The position numbers and the translations under genes are program-made. Shown piece by piece: positions 1,052 to 13,453 of a stretch of DNA of 61,441 bases. A model generated the notes under the pieces. The model saw nothing but the letters and a program-made list of their open reading frames with translations. It made no database searches and was not told the DNA's origin. Source of the stretch: Nitrosopumilus sp. LS_AOA. GTDB lineage: Archaea; Thermoproteota; Nitrososphaeria; Nitrososphaerales; Nitrosopumilaceae. The DNA lies in contig LFLC01000041.1 of the NCBI GenBank assembly GCA_001543015.1, forward strand, positions 1 through 61,441. The letters are read 5' to 3'. Every line of letters starts with the position of its first letter. Position 1 is the stretch's first letter.

Positions 1052-2533
1052 TTAAATTCCGGGGACAGGTGCAGTAAAAATAATTCCATCTAAGAATTTT
1101 CCCATGAATAAACTAATTGAAAACATTGCGATGCCTCCAATTGTAAGTAATAGTCCAATGTGGAAAAATACTGTCTTATACGTTCCACCTTGAATTACTT
1201 TGATTGCAAATCCGCTAATCACTGATGTCATGATTAGCAGCATAGGCATTAAAGCTGCCATCAATGCTGGATCTATTGGAGTTAACTCAAATGCAGCGTT
1301 TGATATATCGCCTGCAGACATTTCTTGAAAGAGTTCAGTTAGTTTACTCATTAACCCAAAGATACCCAAAGATAAAACATGCAATATTACAACTACTAAT
1401 TGAAACGTTGATGCATTTTGTCCACGTTTTCCTCTCATTTCTGTGACTTTTTTTGTTATATCAGAAATTACGTTTCCTACAATATTCATATTAGCACCCT
1501 TGTATACTGAAACTGAAAAAATATCATTACCATTAGCAATCAGGTGATTTCCTGCATCAATTGAAAACAAGTTAAATGCCAAAATTTGGTCAATTCTATT
1601 TTTGATTCTATTTTTTAGAGCTGTAATATGAGGTTGGATTTCCCCAAAATTACTTCTCATTACTGCTTGAAGTGCTGTACCCATTGAACCAGTTGTAGCG
1701 TATAATTGTCCAAAATGAAGAATAAACATAGGATACCATTCAGTATAAGCTGAAACTCTTGATTCCTCTTTTTTTGCCAGGATTCCAGGGTACAATAATG
1801 GGATTCCAGCCAAACCTACTGCAAGAACTGGTGGAATTAGGCCTGAAATAATTAATACTGCACCAATTCCAATAGCAGGAATTAGTCCCATGTACATTTT
1901 CATGCGGAATTTTTTCTCAATATCCTTATCAGTGAAGGCTAGTTTATCTCGAGAAAATGTGAAAAACATCATTACAACAAAGACTGCCATTCCGCCGCCA
2001 GTCCCAAGCATCGATACAATTAGAATTTGCTCAGCATCTCCAAATCCCATTAACATGCTCATTATAGCATTAGCTGAAATCATAAATGATGCAGTAGACA
2101 TTAGTGTGTAAAACATTTCAGAAAATAATTTTTGGCTTTCTAAATTTGCCTCATATTTTATTGAAAATGTTTGCAATGCATTTTTTAATTCATCTTTGAG
2201 AAACAATCCCAAATCATCACCTAGTCTTACAACTTGGGATAGTTTTACTAGCAGTAGTTTTGTTGGATCATCTGCTTGGTCAGATACTTTACGTGCAATC
2301 ATCTCACAAGATGTAGCAAGTCCATATGACCACCCAACTCCCAATCGATACGTATCCTGAAAAGCCTCTGAATATTTTCCATACTTTGAATCCTTTCCGG
2401 TTTTGAATAGTTCTACAGCTCCAATCTCACCTGTAGAAATGCAATACAAAAATGCAACAAAATAAACAAAGTTTTCATCTACTTTTGAGCCACTATCAAT
2501 AATTGAACTAAGTTTTGGAATTGCAAGTTTCAT
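1052..2533 (-). CDS. arlJ: Archaellum platform protein ArlJ (FlaJ)
   Basis: This 493-residue polytopic membrane protein is the last gene of the archaellum operon. It resembles the TadC/PilC/FlaJ platform family, with two type-II-secretion-F-like cytoplasmic segments separated by hydrophobic clusters near residues 145-195 and 215-250 and a last cluster of helices at 375-490. Known role: membrane platform on which the ArlI hexamer acts during filament assembly and rotation. Its start overlaps the end of arlI by 4 nt (ATGA), so the two are translationally coupled. Confidence 0.9.
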   Translation of the reverse strand: MKLAIPKLSSIIDSGSKVDENFVYFVAFLYCISTGEIGAVELFKTGKDSKYGKYSEAFQDTYRLGVGWSYGLATSCEMIARKVSDQADDPTKLLLVKLSQVVRLGDDLGLFLKDELKNALQTFSIKYEANLESQKLFSEMFYTLMSTASFMISANAIMSMLMGFGDAEQILIVSMLGTGGGMAVFVVMMFFTFSRDKLAFTDKDIEKKFRMKMYMGLIPAIGIGAVLIISGLIPPVLAVGLAGIPLLYPGILAKKEESRVSAYTEWYPMFILHFGQLYATTGSMGTALQAVMRSNFGEIQPHITALKNRIKNRIDQILAFNLFSIDAGNHLIANGNDIFSVSVYKGANMNIVGNVISDITKKVTEMRGKRGQNASTFQLVVVILHVLSLGIFGLMSKLTELFQEMSAGDISNAAFELTPIDPALMAALMPMLLIMTSVISGFAIKVIQGGTYKTVFFHIGLLLTIGGIAMFSISLFMGKFLDGIIFTAPVPGI

Positions 2534-4200
2534 TGCATTTGAAGTTCCTTTAGATATTCGTCCAATCCAATTTCATTGCAATGTGAAATTGCATTAAAGA
2601 CATCATAATAATTGAATATTTTTTTCTCAAGCATTGCCTCTAAAATCTTTGCGCGTAGCTCCATTTCCACATAGAGTTTTCCTTCATCTTTTCTCATCAT
2701 TCCTCGTTTTTCTAAAACTTTGGAGATAAACAAAGCACTACTTCCACGTCCTTTGAATTGTACAGTATCAGTTCCTGCATCCCAAGTAAAGACGGGAATA
2801 AACATTACATTACCGTCATTAGATATTCCAATAATTTCATTAATAGATAATACACGACGGACACGTTTCCCATCAGGATTTAGCACTGCCCCCTGAAACA
2901 AGGCCATATTCAAATTCTCCATATAGGTTTTAGGAATATTGATTGGATCATTTGAGAGTCTCTGGATGAGTGGAACCATTCCTGCTGCGTGAAATGTAGC
3001 CATTACTGGGTGGCCAGTCTGCATTGCAGAAAATGCAACATTGCCTTCAGCACCTCTAATTTCCCCCACAAGGATGTAGTTTGGACGCTGTCTTAATGCT
3101 GCTTTAAGAAGGTCATCCATAGTAACACTTGATGCAGGATTTCCAGTATTCCTAGTTGCTTCTGTAATCCAGTTGTTATGTGGAAGTGTTAATTCAGGAG
3201 TATCCTCAATTGTTACTACCTTCCAGTTTGATGGAATAAAAGCAGTAAGTCCCATCAGAGTAGTAGTTTTTCCTGATGCAGTTTCTCCATTTACAAAAAG
3301 ACTCATTCCAGCTTCGATCATCATCCACAGATATGCAACTTGGGTATAATCCATGACACCTGATGTTAAAATTTGAATAATTGATAATGGAGTACTAGCA
3401 AACTTTCTAATTGTGCAGTTTGTTCCTTTTCTACTGATATCCTTACCAAATACAATATTAATTCTAGAACCATCAGGTAATGTTGCATCAACTACAGGTT
3501 TTGCATGAGATATTGTTTTCCCAAATTGCTCAGAGAGACTAATGATTAATTCATCAATTGCCTCAACACTAAGAAATACTGGAACCTTTAGTGTTCCAAA
3601 TGCTTTGTGAATAATGTACATGTTTCCTGCTCCAATAATTGAGATATCCTCCAAGTTTGGATCATTAAGAAATGGATCAAGTAATCCAGTTCCTGCTCTT
3701 TTTTGTAAAAAATGGTATTTTAAAGCAGGTAGTGCGGATGCAAGTACTGGAATTTTTTCAATTTTAAATGGGTCACCAAGTTTTGTATAATCTACTTTAG
3801 CAGAAGTAGTTTCTAATATTCCATCTAAAAAGTGATCAACCATTGCAAATCTTTCAGTAATTTCTGCTGGAGGATTTAATTTGCCTGCTTTTGCTGCAAA
3901 CACCTTATCTGCAAAGGCCATTAATTCTCTATCAGGTTCATCAGGCTCAATTATGATGTATTCTTTGTATCCATCATCCATTGTAGTGTGAGGGTTAATG
4001 TGAATAAATGTCTCCTCAGATACAGCATAAATCAAATTGGGGTCTTTGAGTTTTTTGTGTTCAGGTTTTAGTTCATCAGAAAAAAGGGGTAAAGGATTTC
4101 CCCTAATTTGATAAGTTTCCAAATATTCTTTCAGGTATAATTTTTCATTTAATGTTTTTACAAAATTTTCATCATTAATTGTAGAGATATCAAAAACCAT
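2530..4200 (-). CDS. arlI: Archaellum motor ATPase ArlI (FlaI)
   Basis: This 556-residue protein is a secretion-superfamily (VirB11/PilT-like) ATPase. The Walker A motif GETASGKTTT lies near residue 305, followed by an Asp-box-type VTIEDTPEL, a Walker B-like region (ILVGEIRGAEG) and a His box (TGHPVMATFHA). Known role: hexameric cytoplasmic ATPase that powers archaellum assembly and rotation with ArlJ and ArlH. It is co-directional with arlH (8 nt gap) and overlaps arlJ by 4 nt. The length is normal for the family. Confidence 0.95.
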   Translation of the reverse strand: MVFDISTINDENFVKTLNEKLYLKEYLETYQIRGNPLPLFSDELKPEHKKLKDPNLIYAVSEETFIHINPHTTMDDGYKEYIIIEPDEPDRELMAFADKVFAAKAGKLNPPAEITERFAMVDHFLDGILETTSAKVDYTKLGDPFKIEKIPVLASALPALKYHFLQKRAGTGLLDPFLNDPNLEDISIIGAGNMYIIHKAFGTLKVPVFLSVEAIDELIISLSEQFGKTISHAKPVVDATLPDGSRINIVFGKDISRKGTNCTIRKFASTPLSIIQILTSGVMDYTQVAYLWMMIEAGMSLFVNGETASGKTTTLMGLTAFIPSNWKVVTIEDTPELTLPHNNWITEATRNTGNPASSVTMDDLLKAALRQRPNYILVGEIRGAEGNVAFSAMQTGHPVMATFHAAGMVPLIQRLSNDPINIPKTYMENLNMALFQGAVLNPDGKRVRRVLSINEIIGISNDGNVMFIPVFTWDAGTDTVQFKGRGSSALFISKVLEKRGMMRKDEGKLYVEMELRAKILEAMLEKKIFNYYDVFNAISHCNEIGLDEYLKELQMQ

Positions 4201-4208
4201 TTTTTCAC

Positions 4209-4910
4209 CTATGCGTTTGCCGTTGACACTGGAACAATCTTTATTCCAAAAATCAAGTCCACCTCAAAAGCAAATCCAGATGCTGGAGTATCTTGTGCAC
4301 CAAGCATCTTAATTGCTTTTAGAGTTTTTACTTCTTTATCACCAACAACTATAGTTCCAAGTTTTAGATACACATCACTTGCACCAATTATAGCAGTATT
4401 GGTAATTTTTGAAAAATCAGAAAAATGACTGGTAATAATTACTGTTTTGCCCTTGCCAACAATTTCTTTGCAAAATGAGAGAAAATTCAAAATGGATTCT
4501 TCACTTGAATTTCGCACCATGGGTGAAATGGAATCAAGTATAACTACATCATATTCATCTGCTTTTTTCATCATGTATGCTTTAATTTCAGCTAGGATTC
4601 GTTCAGAGTTTTTTTCAGACCAATTAGCATCTGGGATATATATTGGAACAAACAATATTTGACTTCGTACAAATGCTCGAGTGAAATTAAAAGTAATTGC
4701 CTTCATTTTTTGAAGATATTGTTTAACAGTATTCTCAATTACACACATTACTCTTTTTTTAGATGAAGTAAGTCCAATCATCATTTGGGCAGCAAGTGCA
4801 CTTTTACCAGTTCCATGTTCTCCTGCAATAAATATAAGTGAGGGAGCAGGCAATCCGCCACCAAATTGTCTATCAATTTCCTCATTTCCAGTAGATATGA
4901 TCTCAAGCAT
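4209..4910 (-). CDS. arlH: Archaellum regulator ATPase ArlH (FlaH)
   Basis: This 233-residue RecA/KaiC-like protein has Walker A GEHGTGKSA at residues 30-38 and a Walker B-like VVILDSISP near residues 120-129. Known role: nucleotide-binding partner of ArlI at the cytoplasmic face of the archaellum motor. It begins the core arlHIJ block. A 36-bp stretch of its 3' part (4281-4316) occurs again without a change at 8535-8570 inside a gene remnant, and the sequence just upstream of its start is duplicated near 8562-8689. Confidence 0.93.
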   Translation of the reverse strand: MLEIISTGNEEIDRQFGGGLPAPSLIFIAGEHGTGKSALAAQMMIGLTSSKKRVMCVIENTVKQYLQKMKAITFNFTRAFVRSQILFVPIYIPDANWSEKNSERILAEIKAYMMKKADEYDVVILDSISPMVRNSSEESILNFLSFCKEIVGKGKTVIITSHFSDFSKITNTAIIGASDVYLKLGTIVVGDKEVKTLKAIKMLGAQDTPASGFAFEVDLIFGIKIVPVSTANA

Positions 4911-4918
4911 AAGTACAC

Positions 4919-5045
4919 CTTAATTGCATCATAATGAAAAGAAGTCAAATTTTGGATTTAAGATAATGTTTGCTTTTTTTGAACAATGCTTAGACTGTTC
5001 TTGTTGCACTGGCAACAACACCATTAGGAGTTGAAACTATCACTA
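4919..5045. repeat. Duplicated arlG-end/arlH-upstream segment, copy A
   Basis: This is the partner of the repeat at 8562-8689. The shared CTTAATTGC at its arlH-proximal edge also occurs inside arlH (4308-4316) and is the probable crossover point for the remnant at 8466-8570. Confidence 0.85.
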
Positions 5046-5370
5046 TTAGATTAGTACTAGATTCTAGGTTATTTTGCACAGTAACGCGAAAATTCATTGT
5101 TTCACCATTATTAAGAATTTCAGGATCTATAACATCAGTAATCCAAGACGATATACACCATTCACCAGGTACAGGCGGACATGATGACACATAGGAAATA
5201 GTTTCAGTATATGTTGTTCCAGTGCTATCATAAGTAACTATAACATCAAAGTTTTCAAAATCCCATAATTTTTCAGAATTAGTATTAGTCATGTTAAAAT
5301 TAAATATAGCATTTGTTCTAGGATCATCTTCAATTACAATAGTAAGATCTTGTTTGAATTGATCAAACAT
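4990..5370 (-). CDS. Truncated, signal-less ArlG-like protein (chimeric)
   Basis: Residues from about 13 to 126 are a close copy of the extracellular beta-domain of the ArlG gene at 8634-9143: LWDFENFDVI, GEWCI, DVIDP, ILNNGE and an identical tail LIVIVSTPNGVVASATRTV. The membrane/class III signal segment is missing. The first dozen residues (MFDQFKQDLTIV) match an internal coiled-coil stretch of the repeat protein encoded at 9631-10986, and the DNA there (5336-5366 against about 10338-10368) differs at about one base. The reading frame is intact, so it is either a recent chimeric gene or a pseudogene that has not yet decayed. It lies just upstream of arlH, where the ancestral arlG would be expected. 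No export signal is visible. Confidence 0.6.
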   Translation of the reverse strand: MFDQFKQDLTIVIEDDPRTNAIFNFNMTNTNSEKLWDFENFDVIVTYDSTGTTYTETISYVSSCPPVPGEWCISSWITDVIDPEILNNGETMNFRVTVQNNLESSTNLIVIVSTPNGVVASATRTV

Positions 5371-5440: not shown

Positions 5441-5581
5441 TCAAAGAGATTTTTCAAGAGATTCAACAATGACATGTGAAAAACTAATATTTTTTGTAGA
5501 ATTTTGAATCATTTTTGCTTGTTTTTTTCTAAGTTTTTTCATTAGTTGATCATCTAAAACAATAGTCACTTTATTACTCAA
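5441..5581 (-). CDS. Small ribbon-helix-helix-like protein (RHH-1)
   Basis: A 46-codon frame starts at TTG and reads (M)SNKVTIVLDDQLMKKLRK..., ending ...SFSHVIVESLEKSL. The layout is that of a ribbon-helix-helix DNA-binding protein: a short N-terminal beta strand (KVTIVLDDQL), a helix, a turn with SFS, and a second helix. A paralogue of the same length class lies at 37480-37623 beside CheY-like genes. It lies in the gap between the LamG fusion and the truncated ArlG, on the same strand. The DNA-binding role is inferred from the pattern; the TTG start is inferred because no ATG is available upstream in frame. Confidence 0.6.
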   Translation of the reverse strand: MSNKVTIVLDDQLMKKLRKKQAKMIQNSTKNISFSHVIVESLEKSL

Positions 5582-5707: not shown

Positions 5708-8302
5708 TTAAGATCCTAATACTTCAGCAGCACCTACACTGTAAAATGCATCAGGAGACACTTGATTATTAAATTCTGTAGTTAACCAGTTTCCTGAACG
5801 TGCACTAGAAGAAATTCTAATCTCATCCAATAACCCATCGTAATCTCTATCAAGATTTGAGGGATTATTACCAGCATAGATGCTCCAGTTGTTCTGACGT
5901 ATATCTCCAGAATCTGAAGTAATTGCTACTTGTGTTCCATTTAGAAAAAGTCTCATCCAAGAACCATCATATGTTCCAGTTATCAGATTCCATGATTCAG
6001 ATTTTTGTAGGTTACTAGGGCCAGATAATGATGTAGTAGTACAAAAATCAAAACTACATGTTTTTAGCATAAAATATGGGGTCGCAGAAGTGTCAACAGC
6101 TAAAGCATAAACATGATTGTCTGGCGTGGCAAAGGATGTTCCCTTTGAAAGAATACGAGAAGATTCAGAAAAGCTTTCAAATTTAGCCCATGATTGAATT
6201 GTAATTTCATCGCCAGATACATTCCAAGTTCCTAAATCCAAATGATCAGAACCATCAGACCCCTCAAAGTCTTGAGCATCAGCCATTAAACCTACAACAT
6301 CAACACTTCCAGAATTAGTTGCATCGTGATTATTGCTAGTAGAATCCTCAAAATCATCATTCAAGTGGTAAACTGATTCATAACCATTGGACCATACACC
6401 TGTAGGATTTTCTTGGCTTTCAGTTACACTGTGTCCATAGTACATGTACAGAGTTGTATCAGTCAAAGCATACAGTTGTGGTACTTTAACCCAAGCAACT
6501 AATGTACCATCAGAGTTATCATATTTTTCTATTTCATGATCTAATTGAATTCTACCATTGTATGATGTAAAAACAATATCTCCACCATCAGCTTGTGCAT
6601 TATCTTGTAAATCAGAATCTGTAAAATTAATTAGCACCGGGAAATTTATTTGATATTCTGGAACTTGTGCATTATCAATGGTGATAGTTTTTCGATATGA
6701 CCAAGTAGGGTCATACCAATCTGCAAATTCTTCATTTGGATCAACAGTATAGAATGTGTTTGGGAATCGTTGATTGTTATACTGTGTTAACATCCAATCA
6801 GAACTACGAGCAACATCTGAAATTCTAAACTCATCAATCATGCCATCCCATGTTCTATCGTATTGAGTAATCCTCTCACCAATACCTACAGAAAATCCAT
6901 CATTCAAATCAGCCATAGTTAGACTTTCAGTAGAACTATCTTGTGGCACACCATTGATGAATAATTTCCAATAAGTGCCATCAATAGTCCATGCAATATG
7001 ATACCACACATCAGCGATAGGTACAACATACGATGTGGCTTCAAATTCATCATTACCATTCAAAGAATTCCATGAGCGAAATCCATTGGATAAATCATCT
7101 AACCACAGATACGTACGATCTAGAGAAGAATACCAAAAACTAACAATGGTAGTATCTACAGAAACATTATCAGCATAAATCCATGCCTCGGCAGTCATAG
7201 AATCAAGAGAATTCAAACTGTTGGAAGTTGAAATATCAATTACGGAATTAAATCCATCAAAATCATCAGCTCCGCTAATAAATCCACTCACAGTTTGATC
7301 AACATTTCCACTAACTGTACCATCATTTCCATATTGGGTGGAATCAGTGTGAATTCCAGAAGTTTCATTGAGATGTTGAATCACAATAAAATTATCATCC
7401 CAAACACTTTGAGCATTTTGTTGGTTTGATGCAAAGCTATTTCCATAATACATGTAGATATCAGTATCAACGATAGAAGACAAACTAGGAATATTTACCC
7501 AAGCAACCAGAGTTCCATCAGAGTTATCATATTCTTCAATCTCATGATTTAATTTTGTTATCTTGTCACTGGAAGTAAATAAAATATCATCACCATCAGC
7601 TTGTGCAGTATCTTGCAAATCAGTATCTACAATACTAATCAAAACAGGAAAATTTGTCAGATTACCTGTAACTTGATCATGATTTATTCTAATTATTTCT
7701 CTAGAAAGCCAATTGGGACTATACCATGCACATTCTGAATTGCCAGTATCAAAACTGGTGGTTTGCATTTGTCCCACAGCACTTACAAACGTCAATGAAA
7801 TAGTTGATGTTTCATTATACAAAGGATAACTTAATTGTGTAAAAATTTCTGCTTTTTCATTGGAGTTAATCAAACCGGGGTCTATCCCATCTCCAATGAT
7901 TTGACTTATTGTCCAGTTTCCAGAAGGGATTTCTCCACTAGTACTTCCATCACATTCTATCGAAATATTTGAACTAGAATAATAGGATGGTGTTTCAGTT
8001 ACACTAGTTCTGACTCCATTAATTAATGCATCATAAGTGACAAATACGTTTGAATCCTCATAATTCCATAATTTTTCTAAACCAGTATTTTCTAACACAA
8101 AACTAAACCCAGATAAACCACTTTCTGCAGATGTACTATCAAATACAAAACTAGTTTTCTCATATTTGTTAGATGATTGGAAACTATCATGCATACTTTC
8201 TTCCACCTCATAGCCATTAGAAATCATCATCATTGTTGCAACACTCATAGTAACAATAACTGTCAGGATAATACCACCACTAATGGCAATCCCAAGTCCC
8301 AT
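5708..8302 (-). CDS. ArlG-like membrane protein fused to two DUF2341-LamG modules
   Basis: This 864-residue protein starts like ArlG (MGLGIAISGGIIL followed by a hydrophobic segment to about residue 28), with an ArlG-type beta-domain at about 45-190 (EKLWNYED, GDGIDPGLINSNEKAE). Two tandem units follow. Each has a DUF2341-like domain with WYSPNW or WYDPTW, FPVLI, DLQD.AQADG, DHEIE and YMYYG (about 195-300 and 525-640). Each then has a LamG/concanavalin-like domain ending WDGMIDEFRIS or YDGLLDEIRIS (about 310-515 and 650-855). Known family role: LamG/DUF2341 modules bind glycans or act as adhesins in surface proteins. Inferred: an envelope-anchored adhesin derived from an archaellum stator protein. 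It lies inside the archaellum locus and is far longer than ArlG (about 170 residues). Confidence 0.8.
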   Translation of the reverse strand: MGLGIAISGGIILTVIVTMSVATMMMISNGYEVEESMHDSFQSSNKYEKTSFVFDSTSAESGLSGFSFVLENTGLEKLWNYEDSNVFVTYDALINGVRTSVTETPSYYSSSNISIECDGSTSGEIPSGNWTISQIIGDGIDPGLINSNEKAEIFTQLSYPLYNETSTISLTFVSAVGQMQTTSFDTGNSECAWYSPNWLSREIIRINHDQVTGNLTNFPVLISIVDTDLQDTAQADGDDILFTSSDKITKLNHEIEEYDNSDGTLVAWVNIPSLSSIVDTDIYMYYGNSFASNQQNAQSVWDDNFIVIQHLNETSGIHTDSTQYGNDGTVSGNVDQTVSGFISGADDFDGFNSVIDISTSNSLNSLDSMTAEAWIYADNVSVDTTIVSFWYSSLDRTYLWLDDLSNGFRSWNSLNGNDEFEATSYVVPIADVWYHIAWTIDGTYWKLFINGVPQDSSTESLTMADLNDGFSVGIGERITQYDRTWDGMIDEFRISDVARSSDWMLTQYNNQRFPNTFYTVDPNEEFADWYDPTWSYRKTITIDNAQVPEYQINFPVLINFTDSDLQDNAQADGGDIVFTSYNGRIQLDHEIEKYDNSDGTLVAWVKVPQLYALTDTTLYMYYGHSVTESQENPTGVWSNGYESVYHLNDDFEDSTSNNHDATNSGSVDVVGLMADAQDFEGSDGSDHLDLGTWNVSGDEITIQSWAKFESFSESSRILSKGTSFATPDNHVYALAVDTSATPYFMLKTCSFDFCTTTSLSGPSNLQKSESWNLITGTYDGSWMRLFLNGTQVAITSDSGDIRQNNWSIYAGNNPSNLDRDYDGLLDEIRISSSARSGNWLTTEFNNQVSPDAFYSVGAAEVLGS

Positions 8303-8465: not shown

Positions 8466-8561
8466 TTAACCTAAGTCGACTACTGCATCAACAATATTAG
8501 GTACTTGACGTTCTACAGTTAGTGCAGCTCCGGTTGCTGGAGTATCTTGTGCACCAAGCAT
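8466..8561 (-). pseudogene. Remnant fusing arlH internal sequence to an archaellin C-terminus
   Basis: Read on the minus strand, a 31-codon open frame begins MLGAQDTPA, which is internal ArlH sequence, and continues in frame as TGAALTVERQVPNIVDAVVDLG without its own start, which is the archaellin C-terminus (compare the tails of the archaellins ending at 10987 and 12743). The ArlH part extends to 8570 and is identical to 4281-4316 (36 bp). No signal peptide, domain or promoter is visible. It is best read as debris of a rearrangement rather than a working gene. The rest of the gap from 8303 to 8465 shows nothing recognisable. Confidence 0.75.
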
Positions 8562-8689
8562 CTTAATTGCATTATAATGAAAAGAAGTCAAATTTTAGAT
8601 TTAAGATAATGTTTGCTTTTTTTTGAACAAGGCTTAGACTGTTCTTGTTGCACTAGCAACAACACCATTAGGAGTTGAAACTATCACTA
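8562..8689. repeat. Duplicated arlG-end/arlH-upstream segment, copy B
   Basis: This stretch repeats 4919-5045 with only a handful of differences, including one extra T in a T tract. It covers the intergenic DNA found upstream of arlH and the last codons of the ArlG-type genes. Copy A sits between arlH and the truncated ArlG; copy B sits between the arlH/archaellin remnant and the full ArlG. Confidence 0.85.
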
Positions 8690-9143
8690 TCAAGGTAGTA
8701 CTACTTTGCAAAGAATTTGCAATCTCAGTTGTAATTGTAATGATCTCACCATTGTTTAGTATTTGAGGATCAATTACATCGTCAGTCCATGAAGCAATAC
8801 ACCATTCTCCAGATACAGGAGGGCATGCAGTATCAAATGTTTGAGTTACAGTATGAGTATTACCACTGCTATCATAAGTAATTATTACATCAAAATTTTC
8901 AAAATCCCAAAGTTTTTCCAAGTTTGAATTTGTAATATCAAAATTAAAAGTAGTGTCGGTTCCAGGAGAAGATTCAATTGATACACTGATAGATGTTTTT
9001 ATTAATTTACTTTCCAAATCAGAAGTTTGAGAACTAACATCAGAAAAAGATGCGGCAGTATCAGTAATCCCCATAAATGTAAAAATCACATAAGTTATTC
9101 CAAAGAGAATAATTCCACCACTAAGTGCATTACTTAGACCCAT
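8634..9143 (-). CDS. arlG: Archaellum stator protein ArlG (FlaG)
   Basis: This 169-residue protein has an N-terminal hydrophobic helix (MGLSNALSGGIILFGITYVIF) and a beta-rich extracytoplasmic domain. Known role: ArlG forms a small filament capped by ArlF that anchors the motor to the S-layer. The N-terminus is shared with the fusion at 5708-8302 and the C-terminal domain with the truncated copy at 4990-5370, so this is probably the parental, working copy. It follows arlF by 11 nt in the same operon. Confidence 0.85.
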   Translation of the reverse strand: MGLSNALSGGIILFGITYVIFTFMGITDTAASFSDVSSQTSDLESKLIKTSISVSIESSPGTDTTFNFDITNSNLEKLWDFENFDVIITYDSSGNTHTVTQTFDTACPPVSGEWCIASWTDDVIDPQILNNGEIITITTEIANSLQSSTTLIVIVSTPNGVVASATRTV

Positions 9144-9154
9144 AGAAAATCACC

Positions 9155-9631
9155 TCAAGATACTGAGAAAACATACTCATCAGATACTCCATTTGATATG
9201 ACAAATTGAACCAGATATGATTCACTACTAGTTATTGCAATACTATCTTGTATTGCAATTTGAATTGTTTGACCCTGAGACCATACAGAACTAGTAGTGG
9301 TACCATTGAAAACCCATTGAGGTGTAGTACCAATAGCATATCCCACATTGCCCGCCGCGTTAATCGGCCCAAAATACGCATCCATCATGTCTAATTTAGT
9401 AATGGGACCAAGTCCAGTATTTTTTACCCAGACATTTACTGAAGTGCTATTAATTTGACTGACATGAATTATCTCAAATTTACTTAGCATTTTTTCTTTT
9501 TGAGCTTCAGTTGTTGCAGTGTAAATCCCTTCAAATGTTCCAACTTTAGAGATAACAATTCCAGTAATCATTCCAGCAATAATGACTGATGCAATAATTA
9601 AAACACCTTCACTAATTACACCTGATGCCAT
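9155..9631 (-). CDS. arlF: Archaellum stator protein ArlF (FlaF)
   Basis: This 158-residue protein has an archaellin-like hydrophobic N-terminus (GVISEGVLIIASVIIAGMI) and a small extracytoplasmic beta domain containing VWVKNTGLGPI. Known role: ArlF binds the S-layer and works with ArlG as the archaellum stator. Its ATG overlaps the TAA stop of the upstream gene by one base (TAATG), and arlG follows after 11 nt, so the three genes are likely one translationally coupled unit. Confidence 0.83.
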   Translation of the reverse strand: MASGVISEGVLIIASVIIAGMITGIVISKVGTFEGIYTATTEAQKEKMLSKFEIIHVSQINSTSVNVWVKNTGLGPITKLDMMDAYFGPINAAGNVGYAIGTTPQWVFNGTTTSSVWSQGQTIQIAIQDSIAITSSESYLVQFVISNGVSDEYVFSVS

Positions 9632-10986
9632 TATGGCACCTCATTAACTATAGAATCAGAGTTAGATCCTTCGGATTTTTTTTGTAATGAATCAGAATTA
9701 TTTTTTTTATCAAGATAAGATAAAAGTTGATTTTCATCTAATGTAATTTTACAAGTTTTGCAATGAACTTTAATTAATTCTAATACTTGTTCAGATTCAA
9801 AGTCATTTGATAGTTCATCAATTAGTGATATAATTTCTTCAGATAAATTTGAAGTATCTACTTCCATAACATCTGGATTGATTAATTCAGGAGCTGATGG
9901 TGTTAGTTCAGGAGCTGATGGTGTTAGTTCAGGAGCTGATGGTGTTAGTTCAGGAGCTGATGGTGTTAGTTCAGGAGCTGATGGTGTTAGTTCAGGAGCT
10001 GATGGTGTTAGTTCAGGAGCTGATGGTGTTGGTTCAGGAGCTGATGGTGTTGGTTCAGGAGCTGATGGTGTTGGTTCAAGAGCTGATGGTGTTGGTTCAG
10101 GAGCTGATGGTGTTGGTTCAGGAGCTGATGGTGTTGGTTCAGGAGCTGATGGTGTTGGTTCAGGAGCTGATGGTGTTGAGGAAGGAGCAATTAGTTCATC
10201 GACATTAATTTGTTGAATGTTTTTCTTAAATGAATCTTCTTTCATAAAATTTAGTGGATTATTTGCATCAGTTGTGAGTAATTTAATGTCAGTTAGAGTA
10301 GTCTCAAATGAGGAAGAAAGTATTTCTACTTCTTCTTTTACAATAGTAAGATCTTGCTTGAATTGATCAAAATCAGTTTTAATTGTTTGAATATCATTTT
10401 CTACAGGCTCCATTTTTTCCATAATTAGTAAACTTGCATCCTCCATAGTACTCTCAGTATTAGGAGAAGAGGTATTGGCATCTGCTAATAATGCATCAAT
10501 TTCGGATAAATCACCTTCAGACTTTTCAGCTCCTGCAATTAGTGCATCAATATCGGATAATTCACCTTCAGGCTTTTCAGCTCCTGCAATTAGTGCATCA
10601 ATATCTGATGAACCACCTTCAGGCTTTTCAGCTCCTGCAATTAGTGCATCAATATCTGATAATTCACTTTTTTGTGGTTCTGAATCAGAAACCAAAGAAT
10701 CAATGGAATTAGAAGTTTTAGATGTACCACCTGATTTTTTAACTGAGATATTTTTTAATGATAAATTTTTTAGTTTCAATTTTTTAATGTTTAGACCAAC
10801 TAAAATTCCAGCTAAAGGAATTCCCAAAGTAAACAAGGCAATGTCTCCATCAAAAATGAATTGAGGAAACATCTCATAGAGTACAAGAAAATACATTGCA
10901 AATCCAGCTAGAATAATAATTTTGAGATTGCTTTGGCTAATTTTGAGTTTAGAAAAAATAGTTGATGGGAGGGGCAAAAAAAGCAC
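9631..10986 (-). CDS. Repeat-rich membrane protein in the ArlC/D/E/X position
   Basis: This 451-residue protein has two hydrophobic segments (about 20-40 and 46-66). A 17-residue tandem repeat follows at about 93-170, with four good copies of S-[DE]-I-D-A-L-[IL]-A and one degenerate first copy (NSIDSLV). Next come a predicted coiled coil (about 180-235), 14 copies of a 7-residue Pro-rich repeat (about 272-370) and a C-terminal helical segment (about 378-430) with CKTC. The start is GTG, directly after the archaellin TAG stop. The position and layout (membrane anchor plus coiled coil) fit the ArlC/D/E or ArlX ring proteins, but homology cannot be shown by eye. The IDAL motif resembles the CheY-binding peptide of bacterial FliM. 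Confidence 0.65.
   Translation of the reverse strand: MLFLPLPSTIFSKLKISQSNLKIIILAGFAMYFLVLYEMFPQFIFDGDIALFTLGIPLAGILVGLNIKKLKLKNLSLKNISVKKSGGTSKTSNSIDSLVSDSEPQKSELSDIDALIAGAEKPEGGSSDIDALIAGAEKPEGELSDIDALIAGAEKSEGDLSEIDALLADANTSSPNTESTMEDASLLIMEKMEPVENDIQTIKTDFDQFKQDLTIVKEEVEILSSSFETTLTDIKLLTTDANNPLNFMKEDSFKKNIQQINVDELIAPSSTPSAPEPTPSAPEPTPSAPEPTPSAPEPTPSALEPTPSAPEPTPSAPEPTPSAPELTPSAPELTPSAPELTPSAPELTPSAPELTPSAPELTPSAPELINPDVMEVDTSNLSEEIISLIDELSNDFESEQVLELIKVHCKTCKITLDENQLLSYLDKKNNSDSLQKKSEGSNSDSIVNEVP
9890..10178. repeat. 21-bp tandem repeat encoding Ser-Ala-Pro-Glu-Pro/Leu-Thr-Pro
   Basis: About 14 copies of a 21-bp unit (core TCAGGAGCTGATGGTGTT on the plus strand) lie in the coding region of the gene at 9631-10986. 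The seven copies nearer the protein N-terminus encode PEP and the seven nearer the C-terminus encode PEL, from one base change, so the array grew by block duplication. The length is a multiple of three, so gain or loss of units keeps the frame. Long frames on the other strand here are artefacts of the repeat. Confidence 0.95.
10487..10690. repeat. 51-bp tandem repeat encoding the IDAL motif
   Basis: Four 51-bp units, plus a fifth diverged one toward 10710, encode the 17-residue S-D-I-D-A-L-I-A-G-A-E-K repeat in the gene at 9631-10986. Units are near-identical at DNA level, which points to recent amplification. Confidence 0.85.
10976..10982 (-). terminator. T7 tract just after archaellin B1 stop
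   Basis: On the minus strand a run of seven T follows the archaellin stop codon by a few bases and lies inside the first codons (GTG CTT TTT TTG) of the next gene. Archaeal transcription termination is promoted by T tracts. Inferred: partial termination here would let archaellin transcripts exceed those of the motor genes. Confidence 0.35.
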
Positions 10987-11712
10987 CTAACCCAAATCTA
11001 CTATTGCATTGGTGATTGATGGAACTTGTCTTTCTACTGTCAAGGCTGCGCCAGATGGAACAATTAGTTCTATTTTGATTTTATCGAGTGCTACAGGTCT
11101 TTCTGAGACTTTGTAGACTACTGCCAAAACAGCTGTTTCACCTTGTTCTAGAATATCATTTGGAGCACTTTGATCGGACTGACTAAAGTAAATGAATGCT
11201 GCAGTATCTGCAACTGTTTCATCACTAAATGGATCATTTGCTAACAAATCCCAATCTTCTCCAGTATCAGTGTTCTCAGAATTGCTTGCAGCTCTTGCTA
11301 CAGCAGTTGCTAGACTTTTGTATTCTGCACTAGATATAAGACCTGCATAGATATTGTCGTAATTTAGAGAATTACTGACATATTTTATTGCTGTAGTCTC
11401 TGGATCAAGATTGATGTTATCTCCACCGGATGCTATCTTAATTGGAAATGCGGTTACATTTAGTGTACCGCCACCAGCTGCGTTAACATATCCTGAACCT
11501 ATCACTTTACCAGCAACTTGCATACTGCTACTTGCTTCGCTCAAACTAGAGATGATAGAAGTTTTTGCCTTTTGTGAAGTAGTGAATCCCATGTTAAGTA
11601 CAACAAATGCTAAGGCTGCAGCAACGATTACAAATGCAATCATGACTATTGCAGACTCTACACCGATGACTCCACGATGAGACTGTCGCGTTCCTTTTCG
11701 TTGTAATTTCAT
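10987..11712 (-). CDS. arlB: Archaellin (archaellum filament subunit) B1
   Basis: This 241-residue preprotein has a class III signal peptide: a charged MKLQRKGTRQSHRG leader, the cleavage site RG|VIGVE, and a hydrophobic helix (SAIVMIAFVIVAAALAFVV). The C-terminus reads GAALTVERQVP...VDLG. Known role: processed by the ArlK peptidase and polymerised into the archaellum filament. It shares the leader, helix and promoter with the paralogue at 12743-13453. No peptidase gene is in this window. Confidence 0.94.
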   Translation of the reverse strand: MKLQRKGTRQSHRGVIGVESAIVMIAFVIVAAALAFVVLNMGFTTSQKAKTSIISSLSEASSSMQVAGKVIGSGYVNAAGGGTLNVTAFPIKIASGGDNINLDPETTAIKYVSNSLNYDNIYAGLISSAEYKSLATAVARAASNSENTDTGEDWDLLANDPFSDETVADTAAFIYFSQSDQSAPNDILEQGETAVLAVVYKVSERPVALDKIKIELIVPSGAALTVERQVPSITNAIVDLG

Positions 11713-11788: not shown

Positions 11789-12658
11789 TCATTTAAGATT
11801 TTGAAGAAAATTCACAGCATCAAAGTATTCTTGCTCTACAATTAATCCACTACCATACCAACATATTGATTGGGAATACCAAAAAGGTAGTAAAATGTCA
11901 TTAAAAGTAAAACTAGAATCAAGTATAAAATTATCACAGAGAACTAATGCATCAGATTTTAAATTATAATCAAAATTATTAATTGGCATATTTAATGAAA
12001 GATTAGTTGATTCACTTGGAACCCCATAAACCAATTTTAAAAGATAATTTTCATCATGTTTCCAAATAGAACTTGAAATATCTATAGATACATCAAATGT
12101 AGAATCAGATTCAAATGAATAAAGTTTATGAAAAATCAGCTGGTTTTTACTATCATATATCAAAATTTCATACTCAGTATTTCCAAGGTCAGACTCTACT
12201 AATCCATTAATTATCAATATTTCAGAATCTGTTACATCATATGAAATATCTAATGTTGATTGATATATTCCAGGTCTATCTTCATAAAAAATTTTACCAG
12301 TAAACCATGGATGAATTTCACAAAAATAATAGTATCCAGCAAATCCTGGATTTTCTAAAGAAACAGAAAAACTATCACCAGGGGGTAAAATATCAGTGGA
12401 AAAGAATTCTCCAGAATAATCAGGATGTGCAGCAATTCCACTTGTAATTTTATGAGTAACAGAATCTTGATTAATCCAAGTTACAGTGTCACCTGATGAA
12501 ATTGGTAGTTCAAGCGGAGAAAACAATTCATCTTTTTGAATACCTTCATGAGGGTTCAAAAATATGCTCCAAGTGTTTTCACCATACACAGATGAAACAC
12601 CAAGAGGTAAAATCAAAATAAATCCCAACAATATCACAATACTTACAAATATCATCAA
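11789..12658 (-). CDS. Secreted cupredoxin with C-terminal WxxG-type domain
   Basis: This 289-residue protein has a signal peptide (about 1-25) and a blue-copper (plastocyanin/amicyanin-like) domain at about 28-125. The likely copper ligands are His69, Cys113 and His116 (FCEIHPW). Residue 119, where the axial Met normally lies, is Phe. The C-terminal end (LPFWYSQSICWYGSGLI...FDAVNFL) resembles the Trp-rich repeat found in secreted thaumarchaeal proteins such as the metalloprotease at 52796-54232. Likely role: extracytoplasmic electron transfer or copper binding. It lies between two archaellin genes on the same strand. Function in motility is not shown. Confidence 0.82.
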   Translation of the reverse strand: MMIFVSIVILLGFILILPLGVSSVYGENTWSIFLNPHEGIQKDELFSPLELPISSGDTVTWINQDSVTHKITSGIAAHPDYSGEFFSTDILPPGDSFSVSLENPGFAGYYYFCEIHPWFTGKIFYEDRPGIYQSTLDISYDVTDSEILIINGLVESDLGNTEYEILIYDSKNQLIFHKLYSFESDSTFDVSIDISSSIWKHDENYLLKLVYGVPSESTNLSLNMPINNFDYNLKSDALVLCDNFILDSSFTFNDILLPFWYSQSICWYGSGLIVEQEYFDAVNFLQNLK

Positions 12659-12742: not shown

Positions 12743-13453
12743 TTAACCAAGGTCTACTATCACAGATGATATGTTTGGAACAGTTCTCTCCATTGTTAAT
12801 GGTGAACCATTTGGAAGAATTACCTCAGCTCGAATTATATCAAGTGACTGTGGTCTTTCATCAACACCATTTACATTATTTTGTCCAAATACAATTGCAA
12901 ACATTCCATGCTCACCTTGGTCCAAGATAAAGTTGTCATTTCTATTTACGTTAAAATAGAATATAGCTTTTGTGTCAGTAGGACCAGCACCAGTATTATT
13001 TACTGGATTGATACTGATATCTATAGCAGAATCAGTAATTGCGGCTTGCATTGCACTAGCCAAAGTATCATGAATACCAGATGATAATGCACCAGCATAG
13101 ATATTTCCATGCTCTATAGTATCACCAATATATCGAATAGCAGCATTTGATGGATTAAGATTAATTGATGCTCCTCCAGATACAATTTTGACAGGTATTG
13201 CAGTTGCGTTAAGTTTACCTGCACTCACATCACCTGAACCGGTGACTTTACCTGCAATTTCTAAAGCACTACTAGCTTCAGCAGTACTAGAGACTATGGC
13301 TTGTTTTGTCTTTTGTGTAGTAGAGAATCCCATGTTAAGTACAACAAATGCTAAGGCTGCAGCAACGATTACAAATGCAATCATAACTATTGCAGACTCT
13401 ACACCGATGACTCCTCGATGAGAATGTTGCATTCCCTTTCGTTGTAATTTCAT
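12743..13453 (-). CDS. arlB: Archaellin (archaellum filament subunit) B2
   Basis: This 236-residue preprotein has the leader MKLQRKGMQHSHRG, the class III cleavage site RG|VIGVE and the same hydrophobic helix as archaellin B1. Its C-terminal tail (VERTVPNISSVIVDLG) is also like B1. The two differ mostly in the outer beta domain, so the filament could be built from two subunits. It heads the archaellum block and is divergent from the TrmB-family regulator at 13677. Confidence 0.94.
   Translation of the reverse strand: MKLQRKGMQHSHRGVIGVESAIVMIAFVIVAAALAFVVLNMGFSTTQKTKQAIVSSTAEASSALEIAGKVTGSGDVSAGKLNATAIPVKIVSGGASINLNPSNAAIRYIGDTIEHGNIYAGALSSGIHDTLASAMQAAITDSAIDISINPVNNTGAGPTDTKAIFYFNVNRNDNFILDQGEHGMFAIVFGQNNVNGVDERPQSLDIIRAEVILPNGSPLTMERTVPNISSVIVDLG

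Follow-up and report, generated by a model that had tools for sequence, protein, structure and literature searches.

The archaellum (arl) locus of Nitrosopumilus sp. LS_AOA carries a gene for a modular ArlF paralogue, in which an ArlF-like domain is followed by two DUF2341-LamG modules. Intact ArlF and ArlG genes lie alongside it, comparable proteins recur elsewhere, and the modular form is associated with archaellated genomes. On balance we favour, if only by a modest measure, the interpretation that the product is an accessory stator cap, an extra modular ArlF that would dock at the stator or the envelope and whose modules would bind glycan. The window, by which we mean the whole stretch of DNA analysed (61,441 nucleotides), contains the gene at positions 8302..5708 on the (-) strand, where an ORF with an ATG start runs for 864 codons without an internal stop.

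The ArlF-like domain spans residues 1-183 (7754..8302) and has, in a hydropathy and motif scan, a single N-terminal transmembrane helix and no class III signal peptide, a combination seen in ArlF and ArlG but not in archaellins. Beyond it, DUF2341 (Pfam PF10102) and LamG (PF13385) alternate in two copies each, all above the Pfam cut-off and on the (-) strand: DUF2341 copy 1 (residues 236-312; 7367..7597; E 2.1e-11), LamG copy 1 (residues 353-502; 6797..7246; E 2e-20), DUF2341 copy 2 (residues 572-658; 6329..6589; E 9.7e-13) and LamG copy 2 (residues 683-838; 5789..6256; E 2.6e-19). Across the whole 864-residue protein the LamG match has an E-value of 1.2e-37. The full-length AlphaFold2 model, from shallow alignments, has a mean pLDDT of 57 and is confident in the DUF2341-LamG part only; fold comparison of that part returned laminin-G, CBM and pentraxin folds as well as the lectin pilin PilC. 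A phage origin of the LamG modules was considered and set aside, since phages give weak, partial matches at most.

The stator-type domain belongs, as judged by profile comparison, to the ArlF family and not to ArlG. A profile of 29 canonical ArlF proteins, from which all fusions were left out, matches residues 1-183 with 103.5 bits, whereas an ArlG profile gives 1.2 bits (E 18), a comparison that rules out ArlG; the ArlF profile gives archaellins scores close to zero. The preliminary description, which had spoken of an ArlG stator protein fused to two DUF2341-LamG modules, was thus right about the stator family and about both modules, but not about ArlG. The family profile that includes the fusion among its members (A1) matches the solved FlaF structures 4p94/5tug/6pbk (E 3.7e-9), five of its ten members match the NCBIfam ArlF model, and Pfam FlaF_Ig-like is above cut-off in two related proteins; the fusion itself falls short of the NCBIfam ArlF equivalog model. 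For the family encoded by the next gene upstream, the profile (A2) hits solved FlaG (5tug/5tuh, E 2.3e-19), and all nine members match NCBIfam ArlG. Because AlphaFold2 gave no confident model of the ArlF domain (pLDDT 43.8 for the domain alone, an all-beta pattern only, from shallow alignments), the assignment rests on sequence profiles.

The arl locus of the window is complete, with every gene on the (-) strand, in the order arlB, a cupredoxin gene, arlB, an arlC/X-like gene, ArlG, ArlF, the fusion, a truncated stator gene, arlH, arlI and arlJ; the fusion therefore does sit inside an archaellum locus, as first proposed, between a complete stator gene and arlH. Directly upstream of it lie canonical ArlF (8634..9143; 169 aa, complete; A1 profile match to FlaF as above, Pfam FlaF_Ig-like E 5e-4, below cut-off) and canonical ArlG (9155..9631; 158 aa; A2 profile and NCBIfam ArlG). 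In this lineage arlH is immediately preceded by ArlF and not by ArlG, and the stator gene order is G-F-H, the arl2 order arlG-arlF that has been set against arl1 (PMC12488501); the ArlG label would suit an F-G-H order, and would turn the canonical ArlF into an ArlG. Since complete canonical ArlF and ArlG are also present, the fusion is an additional modular paralogue beside the normal stator and not, as had been suggested, the stator protein itself. Canonical ArlF is about 140-175 aa long and both FlaF and FlaG are described by Makarova et al. as present in one copy per genome (PMC4858521), whereas the fusion is a second copy, has 864 residues and four added domains, and groups with other modular paralogues.

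The remaining genes of the locus are arlH (4209..4910; KaiC ATPase E 1.1e-17 and synteny), arlI (2530..4200; T2SSE, 85-93% identity to other Nitrosopumilus ArlI), arlJ (1052..2533; synteny, 71-97% identity to the ArlJ of relatives), the arlC/X-like gene for a cytoplasmic component with Pro-rich tandem repeats (9631..10986), and two archaellin genes, arlB copy 1 (12743..13453; 77-83% identity to the first archaellin of related loci) and arlB copy 2 (10987..11712; Pfam Arch_flagellin 5.1e-22). The arlC/X-like gene contains 14 copies of a 21-bp repeat rich in Pro, Ser and Ala together with 51-bp repeats (9886-10178 and 10492-10704), and its length varies among relatives. A gene for a secreted cupredoxin-type protein (11789-12658) lies between the archaellin genes and is conserved in related arl loci (L051, L114, L118, L119, L120 and L123).

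The surroundings of the fusion are scarred on both sides. The 331 bases between canonical arlF and the fusion consist of the normal arlF-arlH spacer, followed by a piece of arlH and the last residues of an archaellin; this remnant (8467..8573, (-) strand) joins an arlH 3' fragment in frame to an arlB 3' end, NAIKMLGAQDTPA running into TGAALTVERQVPNIVDAVVDLG and the stop, and by its sequence marks an old event in which the arl locus was duplicated in tandem. On the other side lies a second ArlF copy (4990..5370, (-) strand) with an open frame and no transmembrane segment, whose first 11 or so residues come from the arlC gene (FDQFKQDLTIV); it is probably a remnant of locus duplication and is likely to be decaying although its frame is still open. 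A small ORF of 46 codons with a TTG start, RHH/CopG-like by eye, occupies 5441..5581 (-) between this truncated ArlF and the fusion. Together the scars look like what is left of an arlB-C-G-F duplication, the second copy having decayed on either side of the fusion. In a close relative (G152, ArlI 93% identical) arlC-G-F sets occur at two contig ends, which could reflect either such a duplication or a mixture of strains. Other archaellated members of the genus (G013, G031, G034, G143, G171, G177 and G200) carry a single plain ArlF flanked by ArlG and ArlH, and in none of these seven is the fusion present at that site.

Flanking by remnants of an old duplication lends something to a different interpretation, that the protein is a general surface adhesin on an ArlF-derived membrane anchor, placed in the arl locus by the accident of a decaying arlB-C-G-F duplicate and playing no part in the motor; its position between the remnants could be a chance insertion. 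DUF2341-LamG proteins with Sec-type N-termini and no ArlF domain do occur in non-archaellated relatives. The only close homologue points partly the same way. In Nitrosopumilus sp. HM_N (L065 = G163) the complete fusion, with 56-82% identity depending on the region, lies outside any arl locus, with argS as its neighbour, in a genome (98% complete) in which no arl-type ArlI was detected, so that the link to archaellum loci suggested at the outset holds for the window and not for this second species. The HM_N copy is, however, broken by three frameshifts and one stop in the very genome from which the archaellum ATPase is missing, and this coincidence of archaellum loss and fusion decay fits a joint function without proving it. 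Sequencing errors could explain some of the breaks (the genome is a MAG of about 9x coverage), although the neighbouring genes are intact. The join between the ArlF half and the module half is the same in both species, which does not favour an assembly chimera as the source of the junction. We note that HM_N keeps a lone intact arlF (L116 8326-8835; G163:C17) between TFB-like and cofC-like genes.

The distribution of related proteins argues further against an adhesin without a role in the motor. A search of 250 Nitrosopumilaceae genomes with the ArlF profile found canonical copies of about 165-190 aa and, besides these, a longer set. Modular ArlF is present in 12 of the 49 genomes that encode an arl-type ArlI and in 1 of the 201 that do not, the latter being the broken HM_N copy (Fisher p 1e-8, genomes being counted as independent despite shared ancestry). 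Two genomes (G255 and G256) encode modular ArlF-like proteins of 793 and 733 aa (L104 8623-11004 and L105 8993-11194), precisely in the arlF-arlH interval but on the other strand, and the large inserts of these proteins are unrelated to LamG. A shorter form of about 357 aa is found in G238, G239, G240, G243, G246 and G254, with a broken copy in G247; its insert breaks into the ArlF domain at profile position ~109, and at the same loop the ArlF domain of the fusion carries a 12-residue extension. G143 and G031 encode an ArlF-like protein of 269 aa that has a PKD domain at its C-terminus, and G338, of another family, has an arl-operon ArlF extended by ~145 residues. In G239, G243 and G246 the gene of the ~357-aa form adjoins an orphan archaellin gene, and these pairs, lying away from the main arl locus (L109, L110 and L111), possibly form a mini-locus.

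In a maximum-likelihood tree ten modular ArlF-like domains from three genera, namely those of the fusion, HM_N, G255, G256 and the six ~357-aa proteins, lie on one side of a branch with support 98/94, a grouping to be taken with some caution because of the long branches involved; G338 and the PKD type fall outside it. That the 13 extended ArlF-like proteins all go back to one ancestor is not rejected by the AU test (p 0.27), nor does the tree show it. The idea that a LamG gene was recently joined to the local arlF was rejected: the domain is only ~29% identical to the local ArlF, and the AU test speaks against a recent origin from Nitrosopumilus ArlF (p 0.019, for a group chosen after the tree was seen). 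To judge from these sequence comparisons, the ArlF domain of the fusion was not made here from the local stator gene and groups with the modular ArlF-like proteins of other genera.

Modular ArlF has also arisen independently in Thermoplasmatota. Three genomes (G431, G449 and G460) encode an ArlF-like protein in which DUF2341-LamG is inserted after residue ~60, inside arl operons and beside intact ArlF and ArlG. The arrangement is seen in L067 (JAHJFH010000365.1), where the order is arlF, modular ArlF, arlG, arlH and arlI, and where the modular protein has 465 residues and a C-terminal part that matches the neighbouring ArlF. In G449 and G460, whose modular ArlF is split over contig ends so that the joins are inferred, another arlG follows directly. 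An ArlF match is present in 36 of the 80 genomes of this class and the modular form in three. DUF2341-LamG modules are very common in the order concerned and their supply is therefore large, yet LamG genes do not in general end up repeatedly attached to ArlF inside arl operons. With the Thermoplasmatota copies inside arl operons and the modular form concentrated in archaellated genomes, we regard a general adhesin brought to the locus by accident as unlikely.

The possibility that the protein serves a filament, either the archaellum or a type IV pilus, as a minor subunit or as an adhesin at its tip has to be weighed as well. DUF2341 has been proposed as a pilus-tip adhesin domain in methanococci (PMC4858521), lectin-bearing modular pilins are known in bacteria (PMC9934059), and some related modular ArlF genes adjoin an orphan archaellin gene. 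The DUF2341 proteins of methanococcal pili and the PilY1 adhesins resemble the fusion in that DUF2341 occurs in a type-IV-filament locus, but they are assigned to pili and are not described as ArlF fusions, whereas the fusion lies in an archaellum locus. Lectin-bearing modular pilins offer the nearest analogy: PilC of Streptococcus sanguinis (7oa8) similarly carries a ConA-like lectin module on a moiety of the type-IV-filament family, but it is processed as a pilin and has been modelled at the tip of the pilus. Filament subunits need a class III signal peptide, and a motif scan ahead of the N-terminal helix found none in the fusion or in its modular relatives. A processed filament subunit is for this reason unlikely, and the separate pilus-like fibre that had been envisaged gains no support; since the profile match is also to ArlF, we consider any role as a minor subunit or tip adhesin decidedly improbable. 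It is more doubtful still that the gene is a non-functional by-product of recombination, translated little or not at all, for although the truncated ArlF and the arlH/arlB remnants show that recombination took place alongside and the only close homologue is broken, the 864 codons are open, the ArlF domain is conserved, and comparison with the HM_N copy (dN 0.20, dS 0.59, dN/dS about 0.34) indicates past purifying selection.

The accessory stator cap that we favour would build on what is established for ArlF, which is secreted full length without a class III signal peptide (PMC13319060), caps ArlG filaments and binds the S-layer (PMC8667602; PMC13319060). ArlF (FlaF) of Sulfolobus acidocaldarius (4p94/5tug/6pbk) shares with the fusion an N-terminal transmembrane segment, the lack of a class III signal peptide, the ArlF domain and a gene near arlG and arlH. 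The fusion would stay full length in the membrane through its unprocessed N-terminal helix, and its ArlF part would take an ArlF-like envelope position, either at the terminus of an ArlG filament or on the S-layer. The LamG modules would bind glycan there, and the motor base may in this way gain an additional, replaceable grip on a glycan surface, with a presumed benefit for anchoring. Sequence does not allow the ligands of LamG and DUF2341 to be predicted; glycan of the cell's own S-layer or envelope, giving a stronger stator anchor, and an outside surface, giving attachment via the motor base, seem to us about equally probable.

How ArlF and ArlG are anchored, above all where there is no S-layer, has been posed as an unresolved problem (PMC12448462; PMC13319060 for bacteria), and glycan-module stator caps, occurring in Nitrosopumilaceae and independently in Thermoplasmatota, would offer a concrete and testable answer for some lineages. 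Tentatively, archaella of more than one phylum may have a second type of stator cap in the form of interchangeable modular ArlF proteins, through which the motor would grip a glycan coat, instead of or besides the protein S-layer lattice, or would clamp the swimming cell by its motor base to glycan surfaces. Stator proteins, regarded as small and single-copy, are seen here to diversify like modular pilins, and the recurrence in another phylum suggests that motor anchors can be customized to grip sugars. The open-access literature, to which our search was confined, yielded no description of an ArlF with added domains, in agreement with the initial impression that no archaellum of this architecture has been described. 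A parallel in gene content is found among the Chloroflexota, where arlF duplication is mentioned (PMC12488501) and arl loci resemble the window in having more than one arlF, but no added domains are described. Finally, we note that in Thermoplasmatota arl operons (L197, L199 and L201) arlI is present as two tandem paralogues.
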